Source of the DNA: Amphritea sp.
GTDB taxonomy: Bacteria; Pseudomonadota; Gammaproteobacteria; Pseudomonadales; Nitrincolaceae
Length of the DNA: 9,809 nucleotides
Direction: 5' to 3'
NCBI GenBank assembly: GCA_024679635.1
Contig: JAIBDA010000044.1
Coordinates: 1-9,809, forward strand
Positions 1 through 9,809 of the stretch are shown here, piece after piece. Made by a program: the position numbers and the translations under genes. Under the pieces are notes generated by a model. It worked only from the letters and a program-made list of their open reading frames with translations, had not been told where the DNA came from and made no database searches. Position 1 is the first letter of the stretch, and each line of letters opens with the position of its first letter.

Positions 1-414
1 GGGTTGTTATTGGCCGTTTTAGTGGGTGTTTTTTATGGCTGGCTTTATGGTCCTGAGTGGCTCGAAAGCTGGAACGAGACAAATCAGCAAGTGGTTGAAC
101 ACCAGAAGCGTGAAGGTGCTGAAACAGGCCAGCAAACCGATCAGCAAGGTTGCTTATCAACGGCGTTACAGCGGGTGGAAAGCTGTAAAGAATCTGAATA
201 CCGTTGTACGGTTAACGGTGGGGCATTTCTGAAAGCGTGTTGGAACGAAAGCCTTCCAACGGACGGTTTCTGTGGTCAGGTGCCCGCTTACAATGAATCA
301 GCGACCAGTGATGATAAAGCCTGGGTCAAAGAGCAGTGTAGTGAATTAGGCATGCTGGCTAAAGGCTGTCGTTTGCTAATGCGTCAACAGCAGAAACTCT
401 GTAGTCAGCCCTGA
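1..414 (+). CDS. Cysteine-rich membrane-anchored or secreted protein, C-terminal part (partial)
   Basis: The reading frame is open from the first base of the window, so the gene starts upstream; a TTG at 4 is the first possible start inside but has no visible ribosome site. I do not recognise the family. The visible 137 residues begin with a hydrophobic stretch (about residues 2-17) that looks like the end of a signal anchor or transmembrane helix. A Glu/Gln-rich linker follows, then a domain with eight cysteines at window-residues 51, 62, 69, 80, 91, 113, 123 and 134. Their spacing is strikingly regular (CX10C repeated, one CX9C), which suits disulfide-linked helical hairpins in the periplasm. 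The even number of cysteines and the membrane anchor support an exported location. It ends about 600 bp before the chemosensory cluster and is probably a separate transcription unit. Function is unknown. Confidence 0.7.
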   Translation, partial: GLLLAVLVGVFYGWLYGPEWLESWNETNQQVVEHQKREGAETGQQTDQQGCLSTALQRVESCKESEYRCTVNGGAFLKACWNESLPTDGFCGQVPAYNESATSDDKAWVKEQCSELGMLAKGCRLLMRQQQKLCSQP

Positions 415-424
415 TCACCGGAGC

Positions 425-481
425 TCAAATATTTTGAAATTACCCAAACTGGGTAGTTTGTGGGTCTGGTCTGATATTTGA
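425..481. repeat. Nested inverted repeat downstream of the cysteine-rich gene
   Basis: Outer arms TCAAATAT (425-432) and ATATTTGA (474-481) are perfect reverse complements. Inside them lies a second hairpin: ACCCAAACT (442-450) and AGTTT-GT-GGGT (455-465) pair over 9 bp with a 2-nt bulge and a GGGT loop. The position, 11 bases after the stop at 414, suits a transcription end. However, no run of T follows the inner hairpin, so it is not a textbook intrinsic terminator; a cruciform or a protein-binding site is also possible. Confidence 0.4.
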
Positions 482-567
482 ACATTACAGATCAGGTAAT
501 CCCCCTTATCTATTGATTATCAAGAGTTTTAAAATCGCAACTGATCGTACAGTTTCTCTGTGTTGAG

Positions 568-611
568 GACCTTCATCGGTTAACTTTCATAAAATATAGC
601 GTCTGAAGGTC
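568..611. repeat. Inverted repeat, 8-bp arms
   Basis: GACCTTCA (568-575) and TGAAGGTC (604-611) are perfect reverse complements with 28 bases between them. In RNA the stem could extend by a G-T and an A-T pair on the outside. There is no adjacent T-run. It may be a stem in a leader transcript or an operator; chance is also possible for arms of this length in 600 bp. Confidence 0.3.
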
Positions 612-651
612 TTGTAAATTTCCCCACCCCATCGTAATTTAATACGCTCGT

Positions 652-680
652 TTGACATGGGTGTTATGCATCTGTTTAAT
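652..680 (+). promoter_or_regulatory. Candidate sigma-70 promoter
   Basis: TTGACA at 652-657 is a perfect -35 match. After exactly 17 bases TTTAAT follows at 675-680, matching the -10 consensus at five of six positions. Transcription would begin near 687, which would give the operon a leader of about 330 nt before the ATG at 1017, or serve a small RNA in the intergenic region. This is the best sigma-70 match I saw in the region, but it is a pattern match only. Confidence 0.4.
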
Positions 681-779
681 TTTGTCTGCCCTGCAAACTG
701 AATATAAAAAGTACTGTTTACAAACAATAAATATAAGAAAGGTAATGGGCTTTGTCCTCTTTTTCGACATTGAGCCTCC

Positions 780-799
780 CAGATACAGGATGTTATCTG
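780..799. promoter_or_regulatory. 20-bp dyad, possible operator
   Basis: CAGATA (780-785) and TATCTG (794-799) form a perfect inverted repeat with an 8-base spacer, the geometry of a dimeric regulator site. It lies downstream of the sigma-70-like promoter and upstream of the sigma-54-like element. The spacer contains AGGATGT, which recurs at about 827-833. No regulator can be named from this. Confidence 0.25.
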
Positions 800-858
800 A
801 CTATGCTGTGGAGTAATCCCGTATATAGGATGTAGGGCGCTGAATTTGTTGACCAATT

Positions 859-874
859 TGGCAATACCTCTGCG
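859..874 (+). promoter_or_regulatory. Candidate sigma-54 promoter element
   Basis: TGGCA at 859-863 and TGC at 871-873 place GG (860-861) and GC (872-873) exactly 10 bases apart, the invariant -24/-12 geometry of RpoN promoters. The expected start site would be near 885, leaving a leader of about 130 nt before the ATG at 1017. Motility and pilus genes are often RpoN-dependent, which makes this worth noting, but the -12 half is imperfect and I identified no enhancer-binding site. Confidence 0.3.
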
Positions 875-1016
875 CTACTCACATCTAACCTGTCTATCCC
901 CACCTGCTTATATCTATCTTTGTTCATCGCTTCGTTGATTGTAAATGTTGTATATCTTTCTGCCGGCTCGTAGAGCGGATTCAATATTAAGGTATTTGGG
1001 ATAATCAGGAAAAACC

Positions 1017-1823
1017 ATGCATATTGGAACGTTAAGTTTTCCCGCTGACCAACAGCAAAAGCTGGCAAGGATACTCGAGTTGTCCAAGCACCAGCGATAT
1101 GAACTGGTTGAGTTTGATGCTCATACCCCACCAGACCTGCTATTGCTCTTTGGTGAAGACGCTGTGACAGACCCTGAGCTTGAGTCTCTTCCAGAAGCTT
1201 ACCGTTCGCGTATGGTACAGGTGAGTAAGCTGCCGCCCGAAGATAAAGGGCTGGGGCATATTCGGTATCCGCTTATCTCTTCCCGTGTTATCAGAACGCT
1301 TGATGATATGACGTCGGAAAATGAGGAAGTGACACCGGAGGAGCTGGAAGCGGCCACATCGGCGGATAACCGCTTTAGTAAGTATGAAAATGTTGTGGCT
1401 TCAACGGTATCCCCGGTGACAGAGAGTGGTGGCTATCGGGTGTTGGTGGTTGATGATAATAATGCGATGCAGCAGGCTCTCAGGCTAGAACTGGAGAAAC
1501 TACCGGCTACGATTGAGCTGGCCTATGCCGATACGGGTGAGCAGGCGCTGGCACAGGTCGCCGATGACCAGTTTGATTTTATATTTCTTGATGTGTTGAT
1601 GCCTGGTATAGATGGTTTTGAAACCTGCACCCGTATGCGGGAGATTCCCCGCTTGAAGAAAACCCCGATTATTATGCTGACTTCCAAGACCTCTCCTTTA
1701 GATGAAGTGAAAGGAATTATGGCTGGCTGCTCTACCTATCTGACTAAGCCGATCGATCATGATGAGTTTCAAAAAGTAATTACCCGGGTGTCGGGTTGGG
1801 TAGATGAATTTAAACAAGACTGA
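1017..1823 (+). CDS. PilG-type response regulator with N-terminal pseudo-receiver
   Basis: This 268-residue protein has a C-terminal receiver domain (about residues 140-262) with the full phosphorylation set: acidic pair D146-D147, phospho-acceptor D192 in the LDVLMPG context, T222 and K244 in LTKP. The receiver resembles PilG, especially the stretch after the acceptor (FETCTRMREI, then TPIIMLTSK and YLTKPID). The first 96 residues look like a second alpha/beta receiver-type fold: strand-helix-strand at 1-34, a hydrophobic PDLLLLFGEDA strand at 39-49, and a RYPLISSRV segment near 83-91. It lacks the acidic pair and an acceptor aspartate, so I infer a non-phosphorylatable pseudo-receiver. An acidic linker (about 97-135) joins the two. 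PilG of Pseudomonas is about half this length and has only the receiver. The start ATG has AGGA six bases upstream (1007-1010). It is the first gene of the operon and probably one of two phospho-acceptors for the ChpA-like kinase. Confidence 0.85.
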   Translation: MHIGTLSFPADQQQKLARILELSKHQRYELVEFDAHTPPDLLLLFGEDAVTDPELESLPEAYRSRMVQVSKLPPEDKGLGHIRYPLISSRVIRTLDDMTSENEEVTPEELEAATSADNRFSKYENVVASTVSPVTESGGYRVLVVDDNNAMQQALRLELEKLPATIELAYADTGEQALAQVADDQFDFIFLDVLMPGIDGFETCTRMREIPRLKKTPIIMLTSKTSPLDEVKGIMAGCSTYLTKPIDHDEFQKVITRVSGWVDEFKQD

Positions 1824-1862
1824 TAGGCGAGATTATTTAGCCTGTTATCTGACCAATTGATT

Positions 1863-1866
1863 GGAG
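1863..1866 (+). promoter_or_regulatory. Ribosome binding site fixing the PilH-like start
   Basis: GGAG sits five bases before the ATG at 1872. The in-frame TTG at 1857 has no such site and would place GGAG inside the coding sequence, so the ATG is chosen as the start. Confidence 0.6.
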
Positions 1867-1871
1867 CAGTA

Positions 1872-2234
1872 ATGAGTAAGAAAATCCTGGTCGTAGATGA
1901 TGACCCTGTACAACAGCAGCACATAAGTAACCTGCTGAGCAGCGTTGATGCTGAGCTGATTCTGGCGGCGAATGGGCAGCAGGGAGTAGCTAAGGCATTG
2001 GAAGAGCTGCCAGACCTGATTCTCATGGATGTTGTGATGCCTGAGGTGGACGGTTTTGCTGCTTGTCGGCAGATAACCTCTACTGCTGAAACCAGGAACA
2101 TACCTGTGGTGATTGTCTCCAGTAAAAACCAGGAAGCAGATAAAGTCTGGGCACAGTTACAGGGGGCGAAGGCGATGATTGCAAAACCATTTGCTGATCA
2201 GGAACTGCTCGCCCGTGTTAATGAATTCCTTTGA
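1872..2234 (+). CDS. pilH: PilH-type single-domain response regulator
   Basis: The protein is 120 residues and consists of one CheY-like receiver, the usual PilH size. Key residues are D9-D10-D11, phospho-acceptor D53 in LMDVVMP, S83 and K105 in AKPF. The segment around residues 84-100 (SKNQEADKVWAQLQGAK) closely parallels the PilH signature in which a lysine/threonine-rich stretch is followed by DKVW..QGA, and this separates it from CheY. In Pseudomonas, PilH is a second phosphate acceptor of ChpA that counters PilG and favours pilus retraction or drains phosphate; the same role is inferred here. The start at ATG 1872 is supported by GGAG upstream. It follows the PilG-like gene by 48 bp and ends 8 bp before the ATG of the CheW-like gene. 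No DNA-binding output domain is present, so it acts by protein contact. Confidence 0.85.
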   Translation: MSKKILVVDDDPVQQQHISNLLSSVDAELILAANGQQGVAKALEELPDLILMDVVMPEVDGFAACRQITSTAETRNIPVVIVSSKNQEADKVWAQLQGAKAMIAKPFADQELLARVNEFL

Positions 2235-2242
2235 GTTTAGTT

Positions 2243-2776
2243 ATGGAATTGCTTAATAACGAGCCCCAGACAGCTGCTTTGCCTGATATCCCCGTCTCAA
2301 CAGAAACATATGACCTGAGGCATGGGTTTCGGGTGGAGTTCCTACAACTGCTACTGCAGTCGCAAACCCGTTCAGAGTTACTTCGCTGTGGGCAGGTGTG
2401 CGGGATACCAGATACACCAGACTGGTTTGTTGGCTTCATTAATCACCGGGGCGAAGCGGTCCCGGTGTATGACTTCGCTGCATCGCTGGGACTGGAGTCT
2501 ACCAATCAGAAACAAGGTTGGTTGTTGTTATTGGGAGAACATCCGGAAGCTGCCGCATTGCTGCTTGCGGATATGCCAGAGAGTGTTACCAGTCCTCAAG
2601 CGTTGCCCCAAAAAGCGTCTTTACCTATTCCCGATATTCTAAAGAATATCTGCGGTGGTCAGTATCAGCATCAAAATTCTGTTTGGTTTGAGCTGAATCA
2701 CCAGGCATATTTTGCCGTTCAAAAACAACACTTTAAACGAGTCGAATCTAATCTGAATATCGATCAGGATATTTAA
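2243..2776 (+). CDS. CheW/PilI-like adaptor protein
   Basis: This 177-residue protein carries the CheW core: the motif WFVGFINHRGEAVPVYDF at residues 61-78 contains the conserved N-x-R-G (N67, R69, G70) and P-V-x-D turn (P74-D77). The first 22 residues are a short extension. Length matches PilI (about 178). It should bridge the PilJ-like receptor and the P5 domain of the ChpA-like kinase in a cytoplasmic array, and its place directly before the receptor gene matches pilI. The rest of the sequence is divergent from canonical CheW, so PilI identity rests on length and context. I chose ATG 2243, with GAG (2233-2235) seven bases upstream. An alternative TTG at 2231 would overlap the stop of the preceding gene (TTGA) and add four residues, but it has no ribosome site. 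Confidence 0.8.
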   Translation: MELLNNEPQTAALPDIPVSTETYDLRHGFRVEFLQLLLQSQTRSELLRCGQVCGIPDTPDWFVGFINHRGEAVPVYDFAASLGLESTNQKQGWLLLLGEHPEAAALLLADMPESVTSPQALPQKASLPIPDILKNICGGQYQHQNSVWFELNHQAYFAVQKQHFKRVESNLNIDQDI

Positions 2777-2795
2777 TTTAACGGGGAATAAGAAC

Positions 2796-4943
2796 ATGAG
2801 TTCATTCTGGCAAATGAAAACAACAAATGATCGCCAGATCTGGGAATTCCGCAGCATTCGAATGCCGGTTAAATTTGCTGTTGCTGGTGCATTGCTGGTG
2901 ATCGGGCTTATTTTTATGGGGGCGTCTTTCTATCAGACAGTTGTTATTAAAGAAGAGGCAGAAGTACGTAGCCAGGAGCTAAATGACTTTCTGCTGCTAG
3001 TCAGTGATATCCGTTCTAATATCGCTCTGGCCAGGTACCATGAGAAGAGCTTCCAGGTTGATAAAGATATGGCGCAGTTGCCGTTATACAACGCCACAAT
3101 GGCGAAGGTAGATGCTGATATTCAGGCGATGAAACAGTACTTGCGAACGGAGCAGGATCAGGCCCTGGTGGCTCGGTTTCAATCAGTTATAGATAACTAT
3201 CAGGACACTTTTTATGACGCATCGGAAGCTTCAGTAACCGCAGGCCTGACAGCAGACCAGGGTATATCTGGCCAGATAAACAGGCTGTTGTGGGAGACCG
3301 ATGCTCTGATTATCTGGATTCAGCGTGACTGGTTACGTAGCTCTTTCGATACGCTAAAAAGTAACATGAACGAATATATAGCCAGCGGTGGTCGAACAGT
3401 AACGCATGATTCTGTTGCCTCACAGATTAGACGCTTGAAAAATCAGATGGAAGCGGCAAAGGCGGTAAAGCAGTTTCCGCAAAACAGAACAGCTGTAATT
3501 GATAATCTGGGTGAAGTGGCACTGCTATTTGCTGAACTGTCAGACTCTGTAGAGCGAGGGACTGGTGAGTTTGAACAGTTACAAACTATTATCGCTGAAT
3601 TAGAGCCCTTTATGGGTCAGGTAATTACGCTGGCCGATAGTTATAAAGTTCAGAACAGTGATGTTCAGGCGGAAGAAGTGCTGTCAATGGTGACTTATTT
3701 CTTTGCTTCGATGGGCCTGATGCTTGTTGCGATGGCTGTCGCTATGTCGATCGTTAAATACGGGGTGGTTGATCCGGTCAATAAACTGCAGGACACCGTT
3801 AACCGGATACGTGACGGAGATGTCGAGGCGCGGAGCAGGCTGGAGGCCAGGGATGAGCTGGGACAGCTAGGCCTGGTACTGGACACTTTGCTGGATGAAA
3901 AAGAGCTGGCGTTGACAGCAAAAGAAGATGAAAACAAAACACTTAACAACTCGATTATTGAGCTGATCAAAAATGTATTCCTGATCAGCCAACGTGACCT
4001 GACGGTCCGGGTTCCGGTTGCAGAGGACGTCACCGGTGCCATTGCTGACTCGATTAACCAGCTGACCACGTCGATTGAAACTGTACTTAACGATGTGAAC
4101 GCAGTATCGACCCGGGTAAATAACGCTTCGGTGCAGGTTAAATCACAGTCTGAAACCGTACTGACATATGCCAGTAAGGAGCAGGAGGAGATTGTCGAAA
4201 CCTTGCAGGGCCTGGACTCCGCAATTAAAGCGATGGAGCTTATTTCAAAGTTGGCTGTATTGACCAACAACGCTTCCCAGAAAGCGATTAAAACATCTGA
4301 AACTGCGATGGATTCGGTATCTCAGACCATTGGTAGCATCAACAAAATTCGCCAGACTATCCACGAAGCAGAAAAACGGATTAAACGTTTGGGAGAGCGT
4401 TCCCAAGAGATCGGCGGTATCGTTAATCTGATCAATAATATTTCTGAGCGAACCCATGTGTTGTCACTGAATGCCAGTATGCACGCGGCGTCGGCCGGTG
4501 AAGCTGGCCGGGGTCTGATGGTGGTGGTAGATGAGGTACAGCGTTTGGCGGAGAACTCCCGGGAGGCAACCTCAGAGATCGAGTCTCTGGTAAATAATAT
4601 CCAGCTTGAGACCGCAGATACGATTAATGTTATGAATACCGTAATCACAGACGTTGTTGAAGGGACCCGGTTGGCAGAGGAAGCAGGTGAGCGTATGGAT
4701 GAGACCCGATCGACCACCCAGACGCTGGTCGAGTCGGTGGTGCGTATTGCACAGAACTCTGCCCGCCAGGCGAAAGTAGCGAAAGAGTTACGTGCCCGTG
4801 CCGGTAAAATTGATGAGACCACCATGGCGACTAACAAAGAGATGTTACAGCAGGCGGAATTGTCAGATGAACTGGTAGATGCTGCACAGGAATTGCAGCG
4901 CTCTGTCAGTGTATTTAAGTTGGCGGCCCCCGTCGTTTCCTGA
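2796..4943 (+). CDS. PilJ-like methyl-accepting chemotaxis receptor
   Basis: This 715-residue inner-membrane receptor has a short cytoplasmic N-terminus, transmembrane helix 1 at about 27-50, a periplasmic region of about 245 residues (52-297), transmembrane helix 2 at about 298-320, a HAMP domain from about 322 to 372, a second HAMP-like segment (about 390-425, containing DLTVRVPVAEDVTGAIADSI), and a signalling coiled coil whose hairpin tip lies at about 548-573 (ISERTHVLSLNAS, then AGEAGRG). The EDVTGAIADSIN stretch and the DEVQRLAE stretch after the tip are typical of PilJ. The periplasmic region is all-helical and contains ARYHEKSF at 79-86, which suggests a helical bimodular (HBM-type) or four-helix sensor, not the PilJ-N domain; this is the main difference from PilJ. 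No CheR-binding C-terminal pentapeptide is seen (it ends APVVS). GGGGA eight bases before the ATG supports the start. It should control the kinase encoded next. Confidence 0.9.
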   Translation: MSSFWQMKTTNDRQIWEFRSIRMPVKFAVAGALLVIGLIFMGASFYQTVVIKEEAEVRSQELNDFLLLVSDIRSNIALARYHEKSFQVDKDMAQLPLYNATMAKVDADIQAMKQYLRTEQDQALVARFQSVIDNYQDTFYDASEASVTAGLTADQGISGQINRLLWETDALIIWIQRDWLRSSFDTLKSNMNEYIASGGRTVTHDSVASQIRRLKNQMEAAKAVKQFPQNRTAVIDNLGEVALLFAELSDSVERGTGEFEQLQTIIAELEPFMGQVITLADSYKVQNSDVQAEEVLSMVTYFFASMGLMLVAMAVAMSIVKYGVVDPVNKLQDTVNRIRDGDVEARSRLEARDELGQLGLVLDTLLDEKELALTAKEDENKTLNNSIIELIKNVFLISQRDLTVRVPVAEDVTGAIADSINQLTTSIETVLNDVNAVSTRVNNASVQVKSQSETVLTYASKEQEEIVETLQGLDSAIKAMELISKLAVLTNNASQKAIKTSETAMDSVSQTIGSINKIRQTIHEAEKRIKRLGERSQEIGGIVNLINNISERTHVLSLNASMHAASAGEAGRGLMVVVDEVQRLAENSREATSEIESLVNNIQLETADTINVMNTVITDVVEGTRLAEEAGERMDETRSTTQTLVESVVRIAQNSARQAKVAKELRARAGKIDETTMATNKEMLQQAELSDELVDAAQELQRSVSVFKLAAPVVS

Positions 4944-4964
4944 GCCATCTAATAGGCAAATAGC

Positions 4965-7900
4965 ATGACTCGCGAAAGTATCACAGCCGCAAACCAGTTT
5001 CTTGCGTTGCTACAAACACAGATTGATTCACAACTCTCCCCCGGGGCTCTGACCGAAGAGCTCCAGGGGCTGATTGATTCGTTCAGCGAAGCTGAACAGC
5101 TTGGTATTGCTGATGCACTGGCTCTCTTTGCTGAACAGCTTGAGCAACTGGAAGAGATTGAGGAGCTGTCAGAGCAACGGGCTCTGTTACTCGATTTTTC
5201 ACAGGCGATGGGTGAGCTTATTCACCAGCCTCAACCAGGTGTTTGGCGATACCTGCTGGCCTGTTTGAGTGACGAGAGGTGGCCAGAGCCCCTCGAGGCT
5301 GAAGATGGTGAATTTCTCGCAGAGTTGCTGGAGCAGGACTGTCAGGCACTGATTGATAGTGCGCTTGAGTCTGCGCAGACTCCGGAAAGTGCTGCCGGGC
5401 AAGGGCTGTCTGATAACCCTGCTAAGAGTTTAACTGCTGACTGGGATGATCAGTTGGCACAGTTACCTCTCTTAGAGACGGAACCTGGCGTAGAACAGTT
5501 ACATCAGTTGGTGGAGCTGTCCGGTGATGCGGGCTATGCTGGCTTTGCCGATCTGTTTGCCTTACTGGCTGAGCAGTGGGAATCCGAGTGCGACAGTCCT
5601 GATCGCCTGGAGCTGCTACAGCGGACGAGTGAACTGCTGCAAAGCTTACAAGAGAAGGAAGCTGAATGCCTGTTGGCTTTGATGAGCGACCAGCGCTGGG
5701 TTGAACCGTTGCCGGAGGATGATAAGCAGTTTCTCTATGAGTTACTACTGACAGATCTGCAGCAACTTGACTCTTCTGAAGCATCGCTTCAGAGCGGTGA
5801 TATTCAAATCGTCAAAACCGAACCTGAGCAAGCCCCTTCTATACCAGCGATAGCTTCTTTCTGCGATGTTGATTTAGCATTATTGCAACAGCCCGGCCCG
5901 CAGTTAGAGCCAGCTGTACTGCAAATGCTGACTGATTCGTTACAGGGATTACTGGATAGTTGGCAGGTGCTAAGAGAGCAGGGAAAGAGTGCGGATAAAA
6001 TATTATCAGCTATAGAACAACAACTTGAGCCTGTAATTCGGGCGCTGAATTCGGTGCATCTGCTTGGGGCAGCAGCGATTACACAAGGGATTGAAACTAA
6101 TATCTGCTGGTTGCTGGGTCACCCACAGCAGTTTCAGCCCCAGATACAGCTGCAGATCAGAGAGTTATTGGCAGAGCTGATCAATTACCTGAAAGATATT
6201 ATCGATCCTGAAAAGCAGCAGGTGCTCAAAGACCAGCTGGAGGCTCTACAGTTGCCCGCTAAACCTACTGAAGAGCAGATCAGTTATATTGGCGGACTAC
6301 TTTCTCTGGCCTCCTTGCAAACCCTTGAAACGTTAGAAAGGGAAGAGGCCGTTGATGCTGATGTGGCGTTGAACGTCGCGGATGATATCGACCCCCAGTT
6401 GCTTGAGATGTTGTTTAATGAACTACCCATGCTCTCGGAGCAACTGTCAGAGCAGCTTCAGTTGATGGTGAATGCTGCCGATGTTGATGCGATTCGTGAA
6501 GCGCAACGTGCTGCTCATACGATCAAAGGGCTGGCGAATATGGCAGGGGTCAGTGGGATCGCCAATCTGACACACCGGCTGGAAGACATTCTGGAGTTAT
6601 TTACTGACGCGGAGAAAGTTCCGCCGCAGCGTTTGAGCGAGGATCTGATTGCGATAACCGATACTATCGCGATCATGTGCGAGTCGGTTGTTGATCAGGT
6701 CTCAACGCCCGATAATGCTTGCGCAATGCTGCAGTTAGTCATGGACTGGCACTTTCGATTACGCAGTGAAGGACTGGACCAGCTATCTGCAACAGAGATC
6801 ACCCCTGAGCGCCAGACAGCGACTTTTTCCGGGGAGGAAAGCGAATCGGAAAACAGGCTACAGCCTGCCGAACGCAGCAATCGCGAACAGACCTTTTTCC
6901 GCGTCCCTCAGGCTTCGCTCGACAGCTTAATGCGATTAGCCGGCGAAGGCACGACACTGAATACTCAGCTTGATGAAGAAATTTCCCAACTGCGCAGCTC
7001 AGTACGTCTGAGTCGTGACCGTCAACGGGCTTTACAACGGGTTATCTTTGAACTGGAGCAGCAGTTGAATGAATACTATACCTTGCAACCAGGGTTAGAT
7101 CAGGACAGCGAGGCCTTTGATCCTCTGGAGATGGATCGTTATAACGAGATGCATACCAGCCTCTCCAGGCTTCAGGAAGCGGTTGCAGATATTCACGAAG
7201 TGGAGCAGCAGATGGACCGGCATATTCGTCGGACTGGTGAACTGCATATTGCCCAGAGCGGGGTTCAGAAAGAAACGCTGGAGAGGGTTCTCAGTACCCG
7301 AATGGTGGAGGTAAAGTCGATAGCTGTCCGGTTGCAGCGAGTATTGCGTCAAGCGTGCCGTACTACCGGTAAACAAGCAGAACTGATTATCGAGGGTGAA
7401 GAGACCCTGGTGGATAGTAATATTCTTAATCAATTAGCTGATCCGCTGATGCACATCATTCGCAATGCCGTAGATCATGGCCTGGAATCGCCAGATGTTC
7501 GGGAATCGTTGAGTAAGCCCCAGCAGGGCAGAGTTGTTCTGAAGTTCTGGCTGGACAACGATCTTATTCGGGTAACCTGTGGCGATGATGGTGCCGGTAT
7601 CGATACCGGGCGAATTCGTGAAGTTGCACAGCAGCGGGGGCTGATTGAGCCAGCGGTTGAACTGTCTGAGCGAGAGATAGAACGATTAATTCTAATCCAA
7701 GGCTTTTCGACAAGGGACGAAATCAGCCAGCTATCTGGCCGCGGTATCGGCATGGATGTTGTTCACCAGCAAATATTGCGATTGCAGGGAAACCTGGATA
7801 TTCGCTCGCAGCAGGGGGCGGGAACCACGCTTGAACTCTCGATGCCTTCCAGCTCGTTGATGATTAAAACGCTGTTGGTTCGGGTAGGGAAACAGATCTA

Positions 7901-8699
7901 CGCACTGGCCAGTCATGGTTTGGAGCAAAGCCTCATCTCGCTGGATGGAAGGTTGCACGACACGGCGGAAGGCATGAGATTCGAAACTCAGGGTGAGGAT
8001 TTTCCTGCCTATGGATTGGAAGCGCTGCTGGGTGAACATGGCACGCCTTATGAGTCCGGCCAGGTACACCCTGTTTTGTTGGTGAATCTGGGGGCGGATG
8101 AAAAAGTAGCGATTATGGTGCGCGAAGTGATCGCTCACCGTGAGTTGGCTTTTAAGCCAATGGGCGATTATCTACCGGATATTCCCGGAATCCCGGGCAT
8201 CACAATACTGGCGAATGGTGATACCGCACCGGTTATCGATCTGCCTGCGCGGATTCGATACAAGTCTGCGGATAATCAGAATCTCTTTACTCCGTTAGTC
8301 CTGAGCGACGATCAGGGTTTACCGAATCTGCTCGTGGTGGATGACTCGCTCAGCGCCCGAACGTCTCTTGCAACGCTTCTGCGTGATACCGGGTATGAAG
8401 TGAATACCGCCATCGATGGTTTAGATGCGATGAACCAGATTCGCAAGAAGCGTCCTGATCTGGTGCTGACCGATTTAGAGATGCCGCGGATGGGCGGGAT
8501 GGAGCTGACCAGCATGATACGGGGAAGAGAGGAGATCGACAGTATTCCGGTGTTGATGATTACATCCAGAACCACTACCCGGCATCGGGCAGAAGCAACA
8601 TCTGCCGGAGTAAACTCCTTCCTGACCAAGCCCTGGACAGAAAACATGTTGCTCGACAATGTGCGTACATTGCTGCAGCCCGAAAACCCAATCGCCTGA
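4965..8699 (+). CDS. chpA: ChpA-like hybrid chemosensory histidine kinase/response regulator
   Basis: This CheA-family kinase of 1244 residues is about half the length of Pseudomonas ChpA (near 2470). Domains in order: two copies of an acidic helical repeat (about 33-132 and 178-272); a helical region (about 305-412) resembling the non-phosphorylatable N-terminal part of ChpA; one canonical Hpt domain with phospho-histidine H518 in AAHTIKGLANMAG; a linker; a dimerisation region (about 643-800) containing the ChpA signature FDPLEMDRY (718-726) and STRMVEV; an ATPase domain with N box HIIRNAVDHG (N834), G1 box DDGAGID (874-880), F box GFST (913-916) and G2 box GRGIGMD (925-931); a CheW-like P5 domain (about 960-1100); and a C-terminal receiver with D1126-D1127, acceptor D1170, T1200 and K1222. 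All catalytic residues are present, so it should be active. It would phosphorylate the PilG- and PilH-like proteins; the fused receiver may act as a phosphate sink. The ATG has AGG eight bases upstream, 21 bp after the receptor gene. Confidence 0.92.
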   Translation: MTRESITAANQFLALLQTQIDSQLSPGALTEELQGLIDSFSEAEQLGIADALALFAEQLEQLEEIEELSEQRALLLDFSQAMGELIHQPQPGVWRYLLACLSDERWPEPLEAEDGEFLAELLEQDCQALIDSALESAQTPESAAGQGLSDNPAKSLTADWDDQLAQLPLLETEPGVEQLHQLVELSGDAGYAGFADLFALLAEQWESECDSPDRLELLQRTSELLQSLQEKEAECLLALMSDQRWVEPLPEDDKQFLYELLLTDLQQLDSSEASLQSGDIQIVKTEPEQAPSIPAIASFCDVDLALLQQPGPQLEPAVLQMLTDSLQGLLDSWQVLREQGKSADKILSAIEQQLEPVIRALNSVHLLGAAAITQGIETNICWLLGHPQQFQPQIQLQIRELLAELINYLKDIIDPEKQQVLKDQLEALQLPAKPTEEQISYIGGLLSLASLQTLETLEREEAVDADVALNVADDIDPQLLEMLFNELPMLSEQLSEQLQLMVNAADVDAIREAQRAAHTIKGLANMAGVSGIANLTHRLEDILELFTDAEKVPPQRLSEDLIAITDTIAIMCESVVDQVSTPDNACAMLQLVMDWHFRLRSEGLDQLSATEITPERQTATFSGEESESENRLQPAERSNREQTFFRVPQASLDSLMRLAGEGTTLNTQLDEEISQLRSSVRLSRDRQRALQRVIFELEQQLNEYYTLQPGLDQDSEAFDPLEMDRYNEMHTSLSRLQEAVADIHEVEQQMDRHIRRTGELHIAQSGVQKETLERVLSTRMVEVKSIAVRLQRVLRQACRTTGKQAELIIEGEETLVDSNILNQLADPLMHIIRNAVDHGLESPDVRESLSKPQQGRVVLKFWLDNDLIRVTCGDDGAGIDTGRIREVAQQRGLIEPAVELSEREIERLILIQGFSTRDEISQLSGRGIGMDVVHQQILRLQGNLDIRSQQGAGTTLELSMPSSSLMIKTLLVRVGKQIYALASHGLEQSLISLDGRLHDTAEGMRFETQGEDFPAYGLEALLGEHGTPYESGQVHPVLLVNLGADEKVAIMVREVIAHRELAFKPMGDYLPDIPGIPGITILANGDTAPVIDLPARIRYKSADNQNLFTPLVLSDDQGLPNLLVVDDSLSARTSLATLLRDTGYEVNTAIDGLDAMNQIRKKRPDLVLTDLEMPRMGGMELTSMIRGREEIDSIPVLMITSRTTTRHRAEATSAGVNSFLTKPWTENMLLDNVRTLLQPENPIA
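5061..5780 (+). repeat. Tandem protein repeat in the kinase N-terminus
   Basis: Two units encoded at about 5061-5360 and 5496-5780 share the pattern L..G.AD..AL.AEQ followed by LSDERWPEPL (unit 1, residues 101-110) or MSDQRWVEPL (unit 2, 240-249), then D..FL.ELL..D.Q.L. The offset between units is 139 residues. The DNA copies have diverged, so this is an old duplication. I do not recognise the unit as a named domain. Confidence 0.75.
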
Positions 8700-8712
8700 A
8701 GGTAATATTGGT

Positions 8713-9510
8713 ATGTATTTAATAACAATAAGAAAATGTTTTTCAGGAGTTTTACTTTTGTTGCTCTGGGTTACAGGCCCGACTTATGCGGCGAATATTT
8801 CAACCGCAGCGGAGGTGGTTAATACGGCGGCTGAACAGCGGACATTAATCCAGGTGATGCTGAAGAACTATGTGCTTTCTGGGTTGGGAGTGCGCTCCCG
8901 TAAAGCTGATCAAGCACTGACTGAAGCGATAGCGCGCTTCGATCTGCAGCAGCAACAGCTCAACGCTGCAGTGACTGATTTTCAAGTGTTACACCAATTA
9001 CAACTGGTGCAACAAAGCTGGGCGTTATTACAAGGTGAGTACAAACAGAAGCCAGATCGGGCCCGGTTAGCAGAGCTGTATACCCTGAATGAAAACACGC
9101 TTAAGCAGGGAACATTACTGTTAGAGGGTATGGTGAATCTGAGTAAGGGGGCGCAGATGTTAGAGCTGATGGGGCAACATGAACTGTTGTGTCAGCGGTT
9201 ATCTGCATTGTATGGCATGATGGCTTGGGGAATGGGTGCTGAGATAGAGCCGGCTTATCGCGAAACTTATCAGGCGCTCGACTATAATCTGATTAAGCTG
9301 GAGTCCCTGCCGCACACGACTCCGTCAATAAGCCGGGGGTTAAAGAAGGCCCGGCAGCAGTTGGAACGTATCCGAAAAACAGCTGATGCCAGCAAAGATG
9401 CATTCGTTCCAGGCCTGGTTGATCGGTCGGTGGTCAGAATGGTAGAGCAGGCCAATCAAATGCAGGCGGAATATGTACAACTCGCCGGCTCATTAGATAG
9501 TGCGAACTAG
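8713..9510 (+). CDS. Secreted protein with two PilJ-N-like motifs
   Basis: From ATG 8713 the protein has 265 residues. It starts with a classic signal peptide: positive residues at 7-8, a hydrophobic core (about 12-21) and a likely cleavage after TYA (residue 26). No second membrane helix is visible, so the mature protein should be periplasmic. It is mostly helical. Two segments resemble the PilJ-N domain ('type IV pili methyl-accepting chemotaxis transducer N-term'), whose hallmark is a GRQRMLSQRMAK..Y helix. They are EQRTLIQVMLKNYVLSGLGV (41-60) and MGQHELLCQRLSALYGMMAWGM (153-174); both keep the Q and Y at the same spacing but have lost most of the hallmark. It follows the kinase stop by 13 bp and closes the operon, so it may be a periplasmic sensor partner of the receptor. 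AAGG (8699-8702) overlaps the kinase stop, ten bases before the ATG. A longer in-frame start (GTG 8659) would sit inside the kinase gene and would put extra residues before the signal peptide, so it is rejected. Confidence 0.75.
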   Translation: MYLITIRKCFSGVLLLLLWVTGPTYAANISTAAEVVNTAAEQRTLIQVMLKNYVLSGLGVRSRKADQALTEAIARFDLQQQQLNAAVTDFQVLHQLQLVQQSWALLQGEYKQKPDRARLAELYTLNENTLKQGTLLLEGMVNLSKGAQMLELMGQHELLCQRLSALYGMMAWGMGAEIEPAYRETYQALDYNLIKLESLPHTTPSISRGLKKARQQLERIRKTADASKDAFVPGLVDRSVVRMVEQANQMQAEYVQLAGSLDSAN

Positions 9511-9512
9511 CC

Positions 9513-9809
9513 CTAAGTATCCATAGTCAGAATCAGCTTGCCGCAAACGTGGCCACTTTGACTGAGTTCAAACGCTTCTGCTGCCTTTTCCAGCGGGAAT
9601 GTTTCGGTAGTATGAAGTTGCAGTTGTTCATCAGCAACCAACGTTGCTATTTGACCGAGTTGATTAGCGGAGGGTTCACAAAGAATAGTTTCAACCCGGC
9701 GTCGTTGGGCCGCTCCTGCAGCAACGACCTGATCTTTTGTAACGGATGGTAATGTGACGATAACGCCATCAGTAGTCAGGCAGGGCAGAGCTTCGATCGC
9801 AGTTTCACC
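9513..9809 (-). CDS. MDR-family NAD(P)-dependent alcohol dehydrogenase/quinone oxidoreductase, C-terminal part (partial)
   Basis: Read on the - strand, the frame is open from the window edge (9809) to a stop at 9513-9515, giving the last 98 residues. The sequence fits the C-terminal end of a medium-chain dehydrogenase/reductase: a hydrophobic strand GVIVTLPS after a Rossmann helix, a QLGQIATLV helix, FPLEKAAEAFELSQSGH and the closing GKLILT. The SGH..GK[LI]xLT ending is characteristic of this superfamily's zinc-independent NADP-dependent oxidoreductases. Such enzymes reduce quinones, enals or carbonyls; the exact substrate cannot be read from this fragment, and the cofactor-binding glycine motif lies outside the window. 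It converges on the chemosensory operon with only 2 bp between the two stop codons and is functionally unrelated as far as can be seen. Confidence 0.85.
   Translation of the reverse strand, partial: GETAIEALPCLTTDGVIVTLPSVTKDQVVAAGAAQRRRVETILCEPSANQLGQIATLVADEQLQLHTTETFPLEKAAEAFELSQSGHVCGKLILTMDT

Follow-up and report, generated by a model that had tools for sequence, protein, structure and literature searches.

A secreted-type tandem PilJ-N protein at the end of an Amphritea Pil-Chp operon, and its probable role as partner of a two-module chemoreceptor

It is an open question what PilJ-type chemoreceptors sense and whether a partner protein takes part. The PilJ receptor of Pseudomonas aeruginosa has been described as HBM-type (PMC12632253), and a periplasmic partner for it is raised only as a possibility, in the same review and in an experimental paper (PMC10896506). 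A pair of GxxR motifs binds nitrate in nitrate-sensing kinases and in the receptor McpN (PMC8199190, PMC6381276). Here we describe a Pil-Chp type operon in a 9,809-nucleotide stretch of DNA from Amphritea sp. (the window; assembly GCA_024679635.1, contig JAIBDA010000044.1, positions 1 to 9,809, forward strand), which encodes, in this order and on the plus strand, a PilG-like, a PilH-like and a CheW-like protein, a PilJ-type receptor, a ChpA-like kinase and a stand-alone (SA) protein. We consider it probable that the SA protein serves the Pil-Chp system as a soluble accessory (co-receptor) subunit in the periplasm, paired with the two-module receptor and putatively docking on its distal module.

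The SA gene runs from an ATG at 8713 to 9510 and encodes 265 amino acids; its start lies 13 bp past the kinase stop at 8699, as an earlier reading of this DNA (the sequence-only reading) had placed it. The N-terminus is hydrophobic and ends in GPTYA-AN. Residues 1-26 (8713..8790) are therefore a likely signal peptide, read by eye and not by a prediction program, in a region where AlphaFold2 confidence is low; reading by eye also revealed neither a lipobox nor a further long hydrophobic stretch. Taken by itself, the window protein matches the PilJ family PF13675 at E 6e-4 and 20.3 bits, under the curated score of 26.6. The family as a whole passes that score: all 14 members of the SA homologue alignment, the window protein included, match PF13675 at E<=0.01, and six of 11 singly scanned members reach the curated cut-off (P0011 exactly so; best 9.9e-10). 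Operon copies from other genera (L048, L111 and L114) match in two stretches at E 2e-11 to 5e-23, with 44-82 bits. The closest named relative, from Amphritea japonica, shares 87% identity. In the modelled structure (pLDDT 88.6) helices 32-58 and 147-197 open two bundles, the second of which spans residues 147-263 (9151..9501). The model thus shows the four-helix bundle with the conserved PilJ-N first helix, and two such bundles in tandem within one chain, the NIT-type arrangement. The two helices singled out by the sequence-only reading as PilJ-N-like (41-60 and 153-174) fall inside these first helices. Structure comparison returned NasR and McpN as the best matches. Profile and structure comparison thus both agree with the proposal of a stand-alone PilJ-N-type protein, as does the export-type N-terminus.

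The receptor of the same operon (2796..4943, 715 amino acids, with HAMP and MCP signalling domains) had been said to lack a recognisable PilJ-N domain, and indeed gives no PF13675 match at E<=1, nor does the family appear in the precomputed domain lists of 67 homologues. Its periplasmic region has the two helical modules stacked on long first and last helices that characterise HBM-type ligand-binding domains. The fold matches the TorS structure that was solved together with the periplasmic partner TorT; LytS-N (solved with XylFII) is among the structural matches of both the receptor and the SA protein. The receptor fold is not unusual, since P. aeruginosa PilJ is described in the same terms (PMC12632253). 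A conserved acidic stretch, residues 135-151 (YQDTFYDASEASVTAGL; 3198..3248), is present in all 23 two-module receptors, mostly as YQDTFYDxSEA, and the pattern [YF]QDx[FL]Y..GL occurs in every one of these 23 but in none of the 15 other receptors. Residues 140-248 (3213..3539) are as we read it the membrane-distal module; in the model they run from the last part of helix 75-105 through helices 112-128, 134-153 and 160-176 into the first part of the long final helix.

The SA gene directly follows chpA in all 23 operon loci: eight of Amphritea type from a genome scan and 15 others (L048 and L111-L124). One of the eight, L002, contains only the end of chpA; a ninth hit of the scan, L009, is a short weak match elsewhere and was not counted. 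Co-occurrence was assessed in 116 genomes of the family of genome G004. Matches to the SA protein (E<=2e-37) and to the receptor periplasmic region (E<=4.2e-32) fall in an identical set of 22 genomes; in one of these, G305, the two lie on different contigs, and the SA contig has the coordinates of L002, with the end of chpA before the SA gene. Chp-type signalling domains (E<=1e-60) are found in 37 genomes, namely the 22 with the SA gene, G351, and 14 with short receptors of 602-645 amino acids. The SA gene is thus genetically linked to, and inherited with, the two-module receptor, being present in 22 of 22 genomes with that receptor and absent after chpA from all 15 other Chp-type genomes. In nine of these 15 a weak SA match lies in a long frame; strong matches are absent from all 15. 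Of the 116 genomes, 16 have weaker matches (best E 4e-10 to 8e-4), which sit in frames of 539-694 amino acids and are therefore not stand-alone proteins; the exception is G347, with a frame of 319. Two further genomes, G341 and G344, carry orphan SA relatives (E 1.5e-22 and 1.9e-24) with no Chp gene near. Fisher's test on the co-occurrence gives 1e-10, a figure that treats related genomes as independent, which they are not; on the signalling-domain tree the distribution takes three changes at best, of which well-supported branches force two. Beyond the family, the receptor periplasmic region is found at E<=1e-10 in two of 293 genomes of the order sample (G004 and G264, both with the SA gene) and in two of 274 of the class sample (G004 and G479). 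The match in G479 is a receptor beside a 731-amino-acid CheA-like frame and other receptors, which we read as an ordinary Che cluster. As a separate observation, the locus with the longest receptor (L112 of G387; 743 amino acids) has two tandem SA genes, at 8558-9517 and 9769-10638.

Genome G351 (locus L110) provides a natural comparison without both parts. Its operon groups with those of Neptuniibacter type (support 99/99) and keeps the downstream dehydrogenase gene. Its receptor, at 592 amino acids, is missing one continuous in-frame stretch corresponding to window residues 140-248, together with a few residues at the ends, and the gap starts within the acidic stretch. The SA gene is absent, only 40 bp separating chpA from the dehydrogenase gene. 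A tblastn search with five SA sequences gave chance-level matches only (best E 0.65), and the single one to reach the 40-bp interval does so with its edge, being a reverse-strand match located largely within chpA (E 8.3). Because the tree places L110 among SA-type operons, G351 is read as an apparent joint loss of the distal module and the SA gene rather than as an ancestral state; L110 is joined with 21 of the 23 SA rows, L111 and L112 being the exceptions, at a fork supported at 86/90. The suggestion that the SA protein docks on the helical domain of the receptor thereby gains indirect support, from its co-occurrence with the two-module receptor and from this one apparent joint loss.

Two sequence features separate operon copies from their orphan relatives. 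They were compared between 21 orphans and 24 operon copies; the latter come from the window and from 22 loci, one of which has two copies, and do not include L002. The first is a basic turn between helices 1 and 2, VRSRKA at residues 60-65 (8890..8907), which is the proposed docking surface: all 24 operon copies have both R61 and R63, and no orphan has the pair (Fisher 3e-13, subject to the same caveat of relatedness). The second is the GxxR anion site, which is intact in both repeats of all 21 orphans versus three of the 24 operon copies (L111, L114 and L119), while exactly one of the two arginines is kept in 20 of 24. The window protein has AEQR in repeat 1 (residues 40-43; 8830..8841), the glycine lost and the arginine kept, and GQHE in repeat 2 (residues 154-157), the arginine lost, so that neither P-box carries the GxxR of nitrate binders. 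These sites bear on a different explanation, that the SA protein binds nitrate, nitrite or a similar anion in the periplasm in the manner of NasR or McpN and reports it to the receptor. NasR and McpN are its best structural matches, the orphans and three operon copies keep both sites, and NasR itself has one glycine replaced (PMC8199190). At least one GxxR is lost in 21 of the 24 operon copies, however, and a nitrate ligand for the window protein is doubtful because the nitrate-binding residues of its relatives are half eroded in it. Given this decay, the ancestral ligand can be argued to have been dropped in most lineages, and we regard nitrate reporting as unlikely.

Taken together, these observations allow a fuller version of the co-receptor proposal, which we hold tentatively, as very nearly evenly balanced: a protein of nitrate-sensor type would have become a Pil-Chp co-receptor, its old site decaying while the basic turn R61-x-R63 became fixed, and would act on the distal module. 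In both versions the SA protein would descend from secreted PilJ-N/NIT proteins, a tandem family resembling the nitrate-binding McpN dimer in a single chain. A copy may have entered the pil-chp operon in the common ancestor of Amphritea, Neptuniibacter, Pontibacterium and Marinobacterium relatives, and then been paired with a two-module (HBM) receptor. The protein would be exported, fold as a one-chain double bundle, and use the turn between helices 1 and 2 to dock on the distal module, close to the acidic stretch. The ligand that it binds, or its state, might then alter the long last helix of the receptor and so set ChpA output, as TorT does for TorS; TorT with TorS and QseG with QseE offer precedents for such an accessory mechanism.

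Several observations weigh against the co-receptor proposal, and two of them, the few independent changes and the mirror-tree tests, favour a passenger or a stabiliser of the membrane complex, making no contact with the distal module and co-occurring with it through shared ancestry. The co-occurrence is phylogenetically clustered, with only those two forced changes, and the joint loss was seen once, in a single assembly whose completeness is not stated. The SA protein and the receptor are encoded in one operon, and a single history could therefore have affected both without contact between them. Mirror-tree (distance-matrix) tests, nine of them partial, on 23 SA-receptor pairs point the same way. 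Raw correlations of SA distances were 0.49 with the receptor periplasmic region, 0.30 with the distal module and 0.77-0.80 with the kinase (0.80 for its C-terminal part). With signalling-domain and kinase distances removed, the partial correlation with the periplasmic region was -0.18 (p 0.98), and all partial tests for this region were negative (-0.18, -0.21 and -0.18). Partial correlations were likewise negative for the proximal module (-0.23) and for the distal module (-0.16, or -0.21 once the proximal module is accounted for). The one positive value (r 0.52, p 0.0005), obtained for the proximal module when the distal one is accounted for, carries no control for kinship through other genes and was not used; read literally, it would favour the proximal rather than the distal module. 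Co-evolution at the level of rates, which would be a supporting rather than a strictly defining sign of a partnership with the ligand-binding domain, is not seen, and the SA protein tracks the kinase better than the receptor periplasmic region. Against a mere passenger, all 22 genomes have retained the gene even though it diverges fast (in six of eight loci the protein is 43-53% identical to that of the window), both parts are missing at once in G351, and R61 and R63 are invariant while the old ligand site has decayed. We judge the passenger or stabiliser explanation improbable. That the SA protein instead senses pilin, an option also named in the sequence-only reading, or another periplasmic part of the pilus, relaying pilus state to the receptor, we consider very unlikely: operons of this type control pili and a periplasmic PilJ-PilA contact has been proposed for P. 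aeruginosa, but recent data are said to argue against that contact (PMC10896506), and the SA sequence, which was only read, showed nothing pointing to a pilin interface.

The sequence-only reading had further suggested that the system may have split its sensor from its receptor, and this part is not supported. All 15 receptors without an SA gene, that is, the 14 short sister receptors and that of G351, lack PF13675 as well (E up to 0.1; for two, up to 0.01), and in the tree the SA protein groups with orphan, secreted-type tandem PilJ-N proteins. Since SA-less receptors also lack the domain, and since the kin of the SA protein are free secreted proteins, capture fits better than a split, which was rejected as the leading account. 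Capture of a free secreted tandem protein would be the simpler history; a branch with 100/99 support sets the operon copies apart, in a tree that is midpoint-rooted, drew a program warning of long branches and leaves the direction unproved. The non-operon regions surveyed came from 19 of 45 matching genomes of the order search (besides G004 and G264; mostly the best-scoring), two of the family (L125 and L126) and five of nine further genomes of the class search, in one of which (L140) the SA frame was not recovered again. None of these 19, two and five regions has Pil-Chp genes beside the SA relative. The expectation that homologues sit in chemosensory operons accordingly held for the operon type, always next to chpA, and failed for the more distant relatives, which lie mostly elsewhere. 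Ten neighbours scanned from eight loci included an ABC ATPase, a hydrolase, a glucosaminidase, ETF-QO, a receiver protein, a periplasmic binding protein and others, with no common partner among them; in L056 a lone receiver protein adjoins the SA relative. The orphans as a group (L049-L067, L125, L126 and L136-L139), with GxxR in both repeats and varied neighbour genes, are candidate soluble periplasmic sensors or binding proteins of nitrate type.

The window also holds the other operon genes and their neighbours. The PilG-like response regulator (1017..1823) has about 140 extra residues before its receiver domain, without a convincing Pfam match there; where the full gene was fetched, its length in other SA-type operons is similar (266-296 amino acids). 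It is followed by the PilH-like regulator (1857..2234) and the PilI-type, CheW-like coupling protein (2231..2776). The ChpA-like gene (4965..8699; Hpt, HATPase and receiver domains), which lies directly upstream of the SA gene, is also directly 3′ of the receptor gene (4943-4965), and its product of 1244 amino acids has a single Hpt domain in Pfam; P. aeruginosa ChpA has more. Neither a PilK-like methyltransferase nor a ChpB-like methylesterase was found among the main open reading frames of the window, unlike the P. aeruginosa cluster, which has them. After the SA gene comes a convergent zinc-dehydrogenase-type gene, its stop 2 bp away. Upstream of the operon, an open reading frame at 1-414 with a hydrophobic start, many cysteines and no assigned function has counterparts at the same place in seven of the eight Amphritea-type loci (the eighth, L002, is truncated) and in L048.

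What appears to be new is an extra secreted, sensor-like protein at the end of the pil-chp operon in marine bacteria around Amphritea and Neptuniibacter, probably a separate sensing partner of the receptor. A stand-alone PilJ-N partner of Pil-Chp was not found in titles and abstract openings among the matches listed, in a search whose coverage excludes most subscription journals, and the claim of novelty is limited accordingly; nor did that search return literature on Amphritea or Neptuniibacter with pili or chemotaxis. If the co-receptor proposal is true, Pil-Chp sensing is here a two-protein process. The operon supplies a concrete, genetically linked candidate partner and the receptor module on which it is predicted to act, and two short motifs are available for mutation.

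TorT and TorS are among the closest known systems. TorT is of the periplasmic-binding-protein type, unlike the helical PilJ-N/NIT-type SA protein, and TorS is an HBM-fold histidine kinase, whereas here a chemoreceptor and ChpA form the output. The operon also suggests that a sensor fold of receptor type can act as a separate partner, in contrast to the usual binding-protein partners. QseG and QseE offer a further likeness, by description, in that a sensor with a four-helix bundle is bound by an accessory protein of the envelope (PMC12691602); QseG, however, is a lipoprotein of the outer membrane and activates a histidine kinase, and the SA protein shows no lipobox. NasR, a transcription antiterminator, carries an ANTAR domain (PMC8199190), while the SA protein has an export-type start, no output domain and a degraded anion site. 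The PilJ domain of McpN (6gcv) is part of its receptor and binds one nitrate at the dimer interface (PMC6381276), whereas the SA protein is tandem and separate from the receptor. Finally, P. aeruginosa PilJ keeps the PilJ motif within its own ligand-binding domain (PMC12632253); in the Amphritea window the receptor is without PF13675, and it is the separate protein encoded after ChpA that has the PilJ-N-type fold in the model.
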